From: Dehalococcoidia bacterium
Lineage (GTDB): Bacteria; Chloroflexota; Dehalococcoidia; GIF9; AB-539-J10
Direction: 5' to 3'
Length of the DNA: 64,000 bases
Assembly: GCA_007129495.1 (NCBI GenBank)
Contig: SKVJ01000015.1
Span: forward strand, 1-64,000
Part shown: positions 1,258-4,700 of the stretch, in pieces
How the letters are laid out: every line of letters begins with the position of its first letter
How positions within the stretch are numbered: position 1 is the stretch's first letter
Position numbers and translations under genes: made by a program
The notes under the pieces: model-generated
What the model saw: the letters and a program-made list of their open reading frames with translations, nothing else
Told to the model about the DNA's origin: nothing
The model's database searches: none

Positions 1258-2829
1258 ATGGAACAAGACTACCCATCCTTTGAAGAGGCCGTTGCCAGGG
1301 CGGAGCAGATGAACCTGGCAGCCCGCCAGGCTGCCCAACAGTCCCGCAAAGCTTCGGAGCAGGCATTCGCCAGAATAGAGGCGGTTGGACAAGACGCTCG
1401 TGTGGAGGCGGAGGAAGCCAGCAAGAAGGCGGAGGAAGCTGCGAAGAAGGCCGAGGAAATAGCGACCTCCTCCACAAGGGCGTCACACGAGACGATTTCC
1501 CGCGCGCAGCAAGCCATAGCTGCAGCGGAAGCTGCACTGACTTCCTCGACTCAAGCTGCCGAGTCAAGCACGCGTGAATTCGAAGAGACTATTGCCAAAC
1601 TTGAGGCAATGGTGAGTAAAGCCATCACTTCCATTGAGGAGTCCATCTCTTCGTCACGACGCTCAATCAGCCAGGTGGAGACGACGGCAGCCTCTGTCCA
1701 GCAGAGAGCGGAGGAGGCTCGACGGGCCTCTCAACAAGCCGTTGCCAGGGCCGAGGAACTGGGACAGCAGGCAAACAAGGCTGCGGAAGACTCAATCAGA
1801 GTCTCCCGGGAAGCCCAGAGCACAGCTGACCGCATCGCTAAAGCATCAGAGAAGGCTTCAAAGGAAAGCGAGAAGGCATCGGAAAAGGCCGTTGCGCGTG
1901 CCGAGAAGCTCTTCCAGGCTGCCTCTGATTCGGCTGCGTTATCATCTGCGGCATTTGAAGAGGCGCGGACGCGAGCTGAAGAAGCTATTGCGGCAGCGAA
2001 TACTTCGGCTGAGCAATCCAATCACGCATTCGAGGCTGCCCTGCGACGGGCGGAAGAGGCGGGTAAACTGAGTCAGCGCGAAGCGGAGCGCCAGGTGAAA
2101 GCGTCACACGAAGCTGTTGCCAGAATCGAGGCATCGGTCCGGGCAAGCAGAGAGGCCGTGGACTCAGCAACACGAGCTTCTCAGGAATCCATGGGCAGGG
2201 CAGAGGAGGCCGAACGTGCAGCACGCGAGGCAGTGAGACGAACCGAAGAAGTAACTGCCTCGGCAACCAGATTGGCCGATGACGCACTCAAAGTAGCAGG
2301 AGAGGCTTCGGCACGTGCTGAAGAGATAGAGAGATTCACTGCGGAAGCGGCCGAGGAGGCGCGGCATCTTGCGCAAGAAGCGACCAGGCGTTCCGAGGAA
2401 TCCAGTGCTGAAGCGTTGCGGACTGCAGAGGAAGCGAAGCTCGTGGCCCGGGAGGCTGCGGAGGCTTCGGTCAAGGCCGCGCGGGACATCGTGATCACGA
2501 CCTCCAGGGTTCTGCAGGAAGCGATTGCCAAGGCCGAGGAGACGACCAAGGCCGCCCGAAAGGCCTCGCGTGCAGCCATGAAAGTATTTGAAGACGCCTC
2601 AGCGAGCGCAGCAGCAGCACATCCGGAACCCGAGGAAAGCGTCCAGAAGCCCCCGTCCAAGCAGTTCGCAGAGGCAATGAATCGTTTCGACCAAGAGGAA
2701 TCAAAGGCAAGACCACAGCCGCGCGACGGCCGGCCAGACATTCATTCCAGGCTTCAGTTCCTGGCGAAGATGTACGCGACCGACAAGGAACAGCCATTCA
2801 ATAAGCCGGATAGTCCAGACGACGAATAA
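1258..2829 (+). CDS. Large coiled-coil protein built of 25-residue repeats
   Basis: 523 aa, Ala/Glu/Arg/Ser-rich, no signal peptide or membrane segment, so cytosolic. I do not recognise a named family. Residues 12-447 divide without remainder into a 25-residue repeat starting with a (V/I)ARAE-like motif. Clear 25-residue units are at 12-36, 37-61, 112-136, 137-161, 162-186, 187-211, 212-236, 237-261, 262-286, 287-311, 351-375, 376-400 and 423-447. The other units are 18, 32, 39 and 22 residues long; the first three differ from 25 by whole heptads. A charged, Pro-rich tail of 76 residues (448-523) lacks the repeat. 25 residues over 7 helical turns implies an almost straight long coiled coil. 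A structural or cytoskeletal scaffold role is inference. It is followed by a second coiled-coil gene and faces a tubulin-like gene. Confidence 0.8.
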   Translation: MEQDYPSFEEAVARAEQMNLAARQAAQQSRKASEQAFARIEAVGQDARVEAEEASKKAEEAAKKAEEIATSSTRASHETISRAQQAIAAAEAALTSSTQAAESSTREFEETIAKLEAMVSKAITSIEESISSSRRSISQVETTAASVQQRAEEARRASQQAVARAEELGQQANKAAEDSIRVSREAQSTADRIAKASEKASKESEKASEKAVARAEKLFQAASDSAALSSAAFEEARTRAEEAIAAANTSAEQSNHAFEAALRRAEEAGKLSQREAERQVKASHEAVARIEASVRASREAVDSATRASQESMGRAEEAERAAREAVRRTEEVTASATRLADDALKVAGEASARAEEIERFTAEAAEEARHLAQEATRRSEESSAEALRTAEEAKLVAREAAEASVKAARDIVITTSRVLQEAIAKAEETTKAARKASRAAMKVFEDASASAAAAHPEPEESVQKPPSKQFAEAMNRFDQEESKARPQPRDGRPDIHSRLQFLAKMYATDKEQPFNKPDSPDDE

Positions 2830-2912: not shown

Positions 2913-3440
2913 ATGCCAAACGAAGAGGAATCCAAAGTCCAAGCAGCAGCCCCAGAGCCTCAGAACGCGGAGCCAAAGAAGCCTCCCAAGGTCGGAGAGC
3001 CCACAATCGATCTGCTGGACGAGACCCAACAGCGCGCGGCGGCAGCGTACGTCGCCTACGTTGAAGCCGAGCGTCAACTCGAGAGAGCGTACAAGGAACA
3101 GGAGGCGAGAGCGGAAAAGGCTTACTCCGATGCGCTGGAACAGGCACGAAGAGAGAGTCAGGATACCATCTCGCAAGCACGAAAATCCTACGAAGGGTCC
3201 CTTGCCAGCGCAAGGAAAGCGATGGAGGATGGCATCGCCAAGGCCAGGCAGGCCTTTGAAGACAGTTCTGCGCATATGCGCAAAGCGCATGACGAGAACC
3301 TCGTGCAGGCCAAGAAGGACTACGATGAAACAGTCGCAACCGCTATGAAGAATAGAGACGTGTCCGAGAACAAGGCGCGTCAGGCTCACTCCGAGGCAAT
3401 GGCGCATACGTGGAACGTGTTCACCAAGGCACGTCGCTAA
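2913..3440 (+). CDS. Coiled-coil protein with tandem 11-residue (hendecad) repeats
   Basis: 175 aa, cytosolic by sequence, no named family recognised. Residues 1-44 are acidic and Pro-rich and look disordered. Residues 45-165 are eleven consecutive 11-residue units with no indels, for example AEKAYSDALEQ (67-77), ARKAMEDGIAK (100-110) and ARQAFEDSSAH (111-121). An 11/3 periodicity predicts a right-handed or nearly straight coiled coil, unlike ordinary heptad proteins. A GGGAGGAG sequence lies just upstream of the ATG. It follows the 25-residue-repeat gene by 83 nt and probably shares its transcript. A terminator hairpin at 3462 closes the pair. Function unknown; it may act with the upstream gene. 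Confidence 0.8.
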   Translation: MPNEEESKVQAAAPEPQNAEPKKPPKVGEPTIDLLDETQQRAAAAYVAYVEAERQLERAYKEQEARAEKAYSDALEQARRESQDTISQARKSYEGSLASARKAMEDGIAKARQAFEDSSAHMRKAHDENLVQAKKDYDETVATAMKNRDVSENKARQAHSEAMAHTWNVFTKARR

Positions 3441-3461: not shown

Positions 3462-3496
3462 AAAGGCCCTCGGCTGGTGTAGTGCCGGGGGCCTTT
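3462..3496. terminator. Hairpin between convergent coiled-coil and tubulin-like genes
   Basis: Inverted repeat with arms 3462-3474 and 3484-3496 (13 bp with one G-T wobble) and a 9-nt loop. It lies 21 nt past the stop at 3440 and 31 nt past the stop of the minus-strand gene at 3528. The arm ends (AAAGG/CCTTT) give short T-runs in both directions, so it may terminate both transcripts. Confidence 0.7.
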
Positions 3497-3527: not shown

Positions 3528-4700
3528 CTAAAGAAGAACCGGAATCTCGTCGAAGGATTCCTCAAGTCTCCTTGTCTGATATCCGAGACCCTTCTTCGCT
3601 TTCATCACAGAAATCAAATCGATCGCCTTGGTGAAGTAGTCACTGACCTTGCGAACACTTGCGATCTCAGACATCACGATCGTCACATCAACCTGCCGAC
3701 TGTCACGAGGATAATCTCCGCTTCTTATGAGCGCGTTTGGCGCGAGATGACGAAGATTGTCCCCCAGCTGCTTCATCACATCCATGCTCATCTCTTTCGC
3801 TGGTGCTGTGAGCAGGTAAAGTGCCCTGCCAACATCAGCCGCGTCGATAGTCATCGACAATTCACTGATAGCCTGGTCCATAGCATGTACGCTACGGCTG
3901 GTGTCACTCATCTTATCGCGGAAGTCCCGCTTCGGGCCACAGAACGGAAGGCGACGCTCCAGCCTGGAACTGCCACCACCGATAACTGTCCAACCGGTAA
4001 GAGTCTGCATGATGTCACCAGCGTCCAGTGTTTTGGCGCCAACGTACTTCCTGTTGGTCTCTTCACCTGCACACAGGACATTATAGAAAGGCTCTACCAC
4101 GCGGGCATTGATCGAGTTGAGATTATTCTCAGCTGGCGCGTCCTTCTTCACGTAGCGCTGATTATCCACGAGGAAGACCGCATCAGCCACCAGGTATGTG
4201 GACTTCAGACATGTAGCCGTGTTGTAAATAGTCCGCGTCTCCGTAGTTTCCTCCTGCCGGAAAGGCAGCACCACCACATCGTACACGGGTTTACCAATAT
4301 AGCGTTCCTTCAGGTGCTTCGTCAGTACGCCGATCGCACCGGATCCTGTGCCGCCCGCGGCGCCGGCACAGAGCAGAAATGCATCCGTCTCATAGAAACC
4401 CTCGGCAGTCCGAATCGCATCGACGATCTTATCGACATCTTCATTCGCGATCTCGGCACCGAGTTCACTTATCTTCCCAACACCATGTCCGTTCGTCCGC
4501 TGTGCGCCGATCAATATCCGGTGTTTGTAGTCCGGCTTGATGGTGCGCAATCCACTTAAGTCAGCGACATCAGTATTGACCGCAAAAACACCCGCCAACG
4601 TGTCCATGCCTCTAAGCGCATGTCCTCTCCTGTTGAGTCGAGCAAATCTATCTGCGATGCGTCCGCCGCATTGTCCAAGTCCTATTACCAACAGCTTCAT
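3528..4700 (-). CDS. Tubulin/FtsZ-superfamily GTPase (CetZ-like)
   Basis: 390 aa. The tubulin signature is clear at residues 111-122 (CAGAAGGTGSGA), the phosphate-binding loop. The N-terminus (MKLLVIGLGQCGGR) is the first beta strand plus Gly-rich T1 loop. The synergy-loop region (LDAGD, D226 and D229) keeps the D-x-x-D pair of the FtsZ T7 loop that triggers GTP hydrolysis in the next subunit, but the preceding Asn of FtsZ is not kept. The GQCGGR start and this loop resemble archaeal CetZ or divergent FtsZ more than canonical FtsZ, and no ftsA or ftsQ lies nearby. A second, non-division tubulin homologue controlling shape is plausible but inferred. AAGGAGGG lies about 15 nt upstream of the ATG. 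Confidence 0.82.
   Translation of the reverse strand: MKLLVIGLGQCGGRIADRFARLNRRGHALRGMDTLAGVFAVNTDVADLSGLRTIKPDYKHRILIGAQRTNGHGVGKISELGAEIANEDVDKIVDAIRTAEGFYETDAFLLCAGAAGGTGSGAIGVLTKHLKERYIGKPVYDVVVLPFRQEETTETRTIYNTATCLKSTYLVADAVFLVDNQRYVKKDAPAENNLNSINARVVEPFYNVLCAGEETNRKYVGAKTLDAGDIMQTLTGWTVIGGGSSRLERRLPFCGPKRDFRDKMSDTSRSVHAMDQAISELSMTIDAADVGRALYLLTAPAKEMSMDVMKQLGDNLRHLAPNALIRSGDYPRDSRQVDVTIVMSEIASVRKVSDYFTKAIDLISVMKAKKGLGYQTRRLEESFDEIPVLL

Follow-up and report, generated by a model that had tools for sequence, protein, structure and literature searches.

A rod protein with 25-residue repeats encoded beside CetZ suggests an undescribed tubulin-plus-rod internal skeleton in Dehalococcoidia

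The window analysed here (the whole 64,000-nucleotide stretch, positions 1 to 64,000 of contig SKVJ01000015.1 from the Dehalococcoidia assembly GCA_007129495.1) carries two forward-strand genes for rod-like proteins, followed by a reverse-strand gene that faces them convergently. The first, rod A, is an open reading frame of 523 aa with 25-residue repeats (1258..2829, +), whose orthologues lie in the same gene order; the second, rod B, has 175 aa and 11-residue (hendecad) repeats (2913..3440, +); and the third encodes CetZ, a GTPase of the tubulin superfamily (3528..4700, −). In the gap where B and CetZ converge we saw by eye a 13-bp inverted repeat (AAAGGCCCTCGGC / GCCGGGGGCCTTT, with one G-T; 3462-3496), a possible two-way terminator that is absent from our terminator scan list. 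In the promoter and terminator scan between the genes, terminators did not rise above shuffled sequence.

In rod A the repeats fill a proline-free region (residues 12-447; 1291..2598, +) that is supported by a 25-position profile, by composition and by a low-confidence all-helical AF2 model. Its identity autocorrelation peaks at multiples of 25 (z = 10.0 at lag 25, 7.8 at lag 50 and 7.9 at lag 75, against composition shuffles, which makes these lags independent evidence of the period), and the Fourier spectra of hydrophobic plus alanine, acidic and basic residues alike peak at 3.57 residues per turn, i.e., 25/7, with a power of 43 for the hydrophobic/Ala stripe. Among 21 representative orthologues the mean z was 12.5, 9.6, 7.9 and 7.7 at lags 25, 50, 75 and 100 (range at lag 25, 3.1–22.9), while the heptad lags 28, 35 and 42 gave 0.8, 0.5 and 0.5. 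This lag spectrum rules out a generic heptad coiled coil, and the earlier sequence-only reading was right that the periodicity is 25/7 rather than 7/2; the 25-residue peak is present, so that a spectrum with 3.5-residue periodicity alone was not what we obtained. The 25-mer was found in all 32 rods examined, from more than 10 families, with a core spaced 4-3-4-4-3-4-3 (positions 2, 6, 9, 13, 17, 20 and 24) in which Ala predominates, while positions 9 and 3 carry Ile/Val and position 24 carries Ser/Phe. Elsewhere rod A ranges from 425 to 900 aa, the lengths differing by repeat units.

That the units are exact, as the same reading had it, holds for their length and not for their sequence: positions 25 apart within residues 12-447 are 28.7% identical, and at the DNA level lag 75 reaches 39% identity, compared to about 30% at neighbouring lags. 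TRF detected no 75-bp DNA array, and we therefore ruled out a recent DNA-level tandem duplication as the origin of the repeats. When shuffles preserved the pattern of hydrophobic, acidic, basic and polar residues, the lag-25 signal of the window's rod A fell to z = 2.2 (9.5 and 6.8 in two orthologues), meaning that what recurs in it is chiefly the residue class. Fitted to 32 orthologues, a cyclic 25-state profile that allows jumps at a cost (so that unit counts are biased towards 25) segmented the window's protein into units of 25, 25, 18+7, 25 (nine times), 14, 25, 25 and 47. The exceptions had been read as differing from 25 by whole heptads, which this segmentation contradicts: they are mainly hendecad steps (14 = 25−11, 47 = 25+22 and, in orthologues, 36 = 25+11), and steps of 7 are few among the 32 orthologues.

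Following published supercoil reasoning and its figure of 3.63 residues per turn of helix (PMC9858780), a 25/7 repeat corresponds to a left-handed supercoil of about 1.6° per residue with a pitch of about 33 nm, somewhat under half the twist of a heptad coiled coil (3.7° per residue, pitch 14.5 nm). This agrees with the description of a very slightly left-handed, nearly straight rod, and the proposed length of about 65 nm is likewise recovered for a fully extended helix (436 × 0.1485 nm). AF2 modelled rod A as all-helical from residue 8 to 453, at low confidence (57.6), with the chain broken near 150-154 and 304-312 into three helices, each 142-151 residues long; this model is too uncertain for an oligomer state, and its folded chain gives no parallel coiled coil. 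Since no signal peptide or membrane segment was seen in the sequence, residues 12-447 lack proline and the model is helical throughout 8-453, we judge rod A to be mostly helical and cytosolic. Its Ala-rich stripe would, we infer, mediate oligomerisation into a rod some 65 nm long.

Beyond the repeats, rod A continues into a Pro-rich tail, modelled at low confidence, which contains a short predicted helix (residues 468-480; 2659..2697, +; AF2 secondary structure, low confidence) with the consensus FEEA in most family members, and which ends in a second predicted helix, the peptide IHSRLQFLAKMYA (residues 495-507; 2740..2778, +). Across 24 divergent rods, which share 15–49% identity with the C-terminal region of the window's rod A, R498 and L502 are invariant and M505 nearly so, giving a consensus R-L/M-xx-L-xx-M that is also kept in Dehalococcoides-like genomes. 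A short conserved helix closing a disordered tail is typical of docking peptides, and because the C-terminal peptide has this form we propose it as a docking motif, which may bind CetZ or another cortical partner.

Rod B repeats at lags 11, 22, 33 and 44, with a Fourier peak at 3.65–3.67. For B, AF2 run with its family predicts two helices that form a hairpin, at a mean pLDDT of 83, behind 30 disordered residues at the start: helix 1 (residues 31-111; 3003..3245, +) holds the conserved QRAxAAYxAYxEAERQ, and helix 2 (residues 117-174; 3261..3434, +), delimited by the model and the alignment, has an invariant W167. A fold comparison of the model returned no matches at E ≤ 0.001. In one genus, eight loci keep B-like 11-mer proteins without rod A; in two of these a gene of 355-383 aa follows B, with no family above cut-off.

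The window's CetZ carries both the Tubulin/FtsZ GTPase domain (PF00091, 112.8 bits against a cut-off of 33, E = 3e-32) and the CetZ C-terminal domain (PF21011 CetZ_C, 49.5 bits against 21.6, E = 4e-13), and it falls far below the cut-off of the FtsZ equivalog TIGR00065 (62.5 against 295.2). A PDB profile search placed 4b46 and 4b45 first (8e-51 and 4e-31). The GTP-binding signature GGTGSG (residues 116-121; 4338..4355, −) and two T7-type acidic residues (D226 and D229; 4014..4025, −), which align to D215 and E218 of 4b46, are invariant over 21 sequences; in Haloferax CetZ1, E218 is the position mutated to prevent turnover of GTP. The genome encodes three tubulin-superfamily proteins: two CetZs and one that scores like FtsZ. 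A quick tree built from 111 CetZ sequences, with two Haloferax CetZs as outgroup, has one branch of 36 rows (SH-aLRT 95) that consists exclusively of rod-adjacent CetZs; the few rod-adjacent CetZs outside it come chiefly from loci with two CetZs, where they are the second. Two 357-aa CetZs of the family match CetZ_C at 8e-37, compared to about 1e-20 in its other CetZs, and branch apart in the tree, making separate acquisition possible. Another CetZ, in genome G252, is in two pieces separated by an in-frame TAG (a pseudogene or an assembly error).

The order A-B-CetZ recurs at every locus of the second CetZ paralogue in family f1 that is not cut by a contig end; all second-paralogue CetZs in the family adjoin B and, contig ends permitting, A. 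A search with B across the class revealed more A-B-CetZ loci in other families, five with a second CetZ beyond A. In those five blocks A and B are flanked by two CetZ paralogues, hinting that both belong to the same system. In most families the gene for B sits between those for A and CetZ, but in Dehalococcoides-like genomes it is absent next to A. A CetZ survey unselected for rods found six genomes in which A adjoins CetZ without B. A profile of rod A was positive in 29 of 294 class genomes, and in 26 of these the best match adjoins CetZ. Presence of the two genes over the same 294 genomes, which are non-independent, was both in 28, A only in 1, CetZ only in 40 and neither in 225. Wherever a rod gene and a CetZ gene are end-to-end neighbours (34 cases) the two converge, usually with 50–120 bp between them. 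The adjacency of A and CetZ holds across at least 10 families with changing flanks: nitrilase and NnrD genes in the window's genus (and in some genera only), others elsewhere, including RidA-like and RecN-like genes identified at one locus by sequence inspection. Of 251 genomes sampled over the phylum, the listed matches to A all lie in the class, and those to CetZ_C likewise. One scan of genome contigs gave three close relatives. The 25-mer is also kept in Dehalococcoides-like genomes, a designation that presumably fits three closed genomes of 1.4–1.5 Mb, whose 19–28 reductive dehalogenase matches each are what one expects of Dehalococcoides. The long cytosolic filament or spacer of the sequence-only reading thus stands as a mostly helical cytosolic rod and not as an isolated one: because B adjoins A and the pair is convergent to CetZ class-wide, we regard A as a component linked to a tubulin cytoskeleton.

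We also surveyed cell-wall genes in 75 hand-picked, related genomes, in which any contrast in MreB or FtsW is descriptive. MreB_Mbl exceeded 300 bits, which we take as canonical MreB, in 8 of the 75, comprising none of the 55 CetZ-positive and 8 of the 20 CetZ-negative genomes; every genome also has weaker matches, which probably stem from other actin-fold proteins, Hsp70 and FtsA for example. FtsW/RodA was found in the same 8 genomes and in one CetZ-positive genome (G252), and was absent from the other 54 CetZ-positive ones. Judging from gene content, the group carrying A and CetZ appears to be without a cell wall. Several CetZ-negative genomes also lack both MreB and FtsW/RodA, and wall loss therefore does not require CetZ.

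Taken together, a rod encoded beside CetZ suggests an undescribed tubulin-plus-rod internal skeleton. We think it probable, on these sequence-based grounds, that rod A works with the adjoining CetZ polymer as a scaffold, spacer or cross-linker in bacteria without a peptidoglycan wall. Under this model rod A would be a long, alanine-rich, nearly straight coiled coil dedicated to a tubulin-family cytoskeleton, its C-terminal helical peptide would dock on CetZ or another cortical partner, the short hendecad hairpin of rod B could serve as an accessory linker, and the whole system might support cell shape or organisation where the wall is missing. Several observations count against it. Of the 68 CetZ-positive genomes 40 lack A, and CetZ therefore has no need of it; the best A-like matches of three genomes (G093, G244 and G252) lie away from CetZ; B-like genes survive in four genomes of the genus that keeps B without A, all with zero CetZ matches; and the low-confidence AF2 model of A, folded into three long helices, shows no parallel coiled coil. 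The match in G093 lies in a 1624-aa open frame (contig C114, 4356-8705) with many matches to the 25-mer profile, and this genome has no CetZ at 1e-40. Convergent genes such as A and CetZ are not an operon, and their conserved order could partly reflect vertical inheritance.

Three other accounts deserve consideration. Rod A could self-assemble as an intermediate-filament-like protein in the manner of crescentin or FilP, with CetZ as a mere neighbour or a parallel system. A long Ala-rich coiled-coil rod with a disordered tail does resemble the coiled-coil proteins of bacterial cytoskeletons, FilP and Scy are reported to have Ala-rich cores where they are built of hendecads (PMC9858780), and many CetZ-bearing genomes lack A. 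We nevertheless consider this account unlikely, as it fails to explain the near-constant adjacency to one CetZ clade amid varying flanks. A soluble monomeric spacer or adaptor, either a single alpha-helix or a folded-back three-helix bundle, seems less probable again. The three helices and two breaks of the AF2 model and the abundance of charged residues fit such a protein, and Ala-rich stripes occur also in antiparallel helix packing; on the other hand, the model has low confidence and turns without helix-breaking residues, a fixed three-helix fold would poorly tolerate lengths of 425–900 aa that vary by repeat units, and the strong hydrophobic/Ala stripe is unlike a purely charged single helix.

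The account we find most improbable is that A and B are non-cytoskeletal (for example phasin-like, nucleoid or LEA-like stress proteins), their gene order having been inherited without functional meaning. In its favour, one of 19 rods, not that of the window, matches Phasin_2 weakly (E = 1e-4), other rods match unrelated helical families weakly, and B is kept without CetZ in some genomes. Against it, Pfam and NCBIfam give no consistent family match, both proteins are acidic (pI 5.2 and 5.9) and so unlikely to bind DNA, and A stays beside CetZ across at least 10 families.

For wall-less Dehalococcoidia, a dedicated CetZ cytoskeleton with rods of its own, A (25/7, with a C-terminal docking helix) and B (a hendecad hairpin), is a possibility that we advance tentatively. 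If true, a tubulin and associated-rod system may replace MreB and the wall in their shape role. To our knowledge, haloarchaeal CetZ is known mainly from work on cell shape and motility, with few dedicated partners, and the means by which bacteria without a wall hold their shape are a standing question; a rod gene tied class-wide to one CetZ subfamily, Dehalococcoides-like organisms included, makes it directly testable. The 25/7 repeat is moreover a natural example of a coiled coil whose periodicity lies between those of heptads and hendecads and has withstood large sequence divergence.

Searches of Pfam, NCBIfam and the PDB yielded no consistent family for rod A or B. The PDB set offered rod A only two matches, 4uos, which is a designed helical bundle (9e-5), and the ODAD1 coiled coil (7e-3), both dismissed as compositional. 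No DivIVA family match was found for rod A at E ≤ 1, or among 19 rod members at 0.01; the rod has no match to the DivIVA N-terminal domain motif and peaks at 3.57 rather than at the hendecad 3.67. The Pfam search of the 19 members gave no LEA match, and without a consistent Pfam match rod A falls outside phasin- and LEA-type proteins. The literature searched contained no report of these rods, of coiled coils with a 25-residue repeat or of rod partners of archaeal CetZ, and nothing on point by title on a Dehalococcoides cytoskeleton. CetZ-like proteins in Chloroflexota-Dehalococcoidia were known earlier from a phylogenetic survey (PMC9871819), and beyond this and PMC7203096 we found nothing joining CetZ with the class.

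Among known systems, the window's CetZ shares with the CetZs of Haloferax (4b46, 4b45) the Tubulin and CetZ_C domains, the GTP signature and the T7-type acidic residues; unlike them, it is of a bacterial type in which each genome has 2–3 paralogues in addition to FtsZ and a single subfamily is tied to rods. FilP, Scy and DivIVA-like proteins of Gram-positive bacteria are, like rod A, long coiled coils with non-heptad periodicity and Ala-rich cores, whereas rod A has a 25/7 repeat, with hendecads only in inserts, and no detected sequence relationship to them. With crescentin and eukaryotic intermediate filaments rod A shares a long helical rod, a non-helical tail and a cytoskeletal setting, but no sequence match in the PDB set. 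Eukaryotic microtubule-associated proteins would work similarly if rod A cross-links or spaces tubulin-like polymers, an analogy with no homology detected. We class the rods as a new coiled-coil family linked to a cytoskeletal GTPase of known type.
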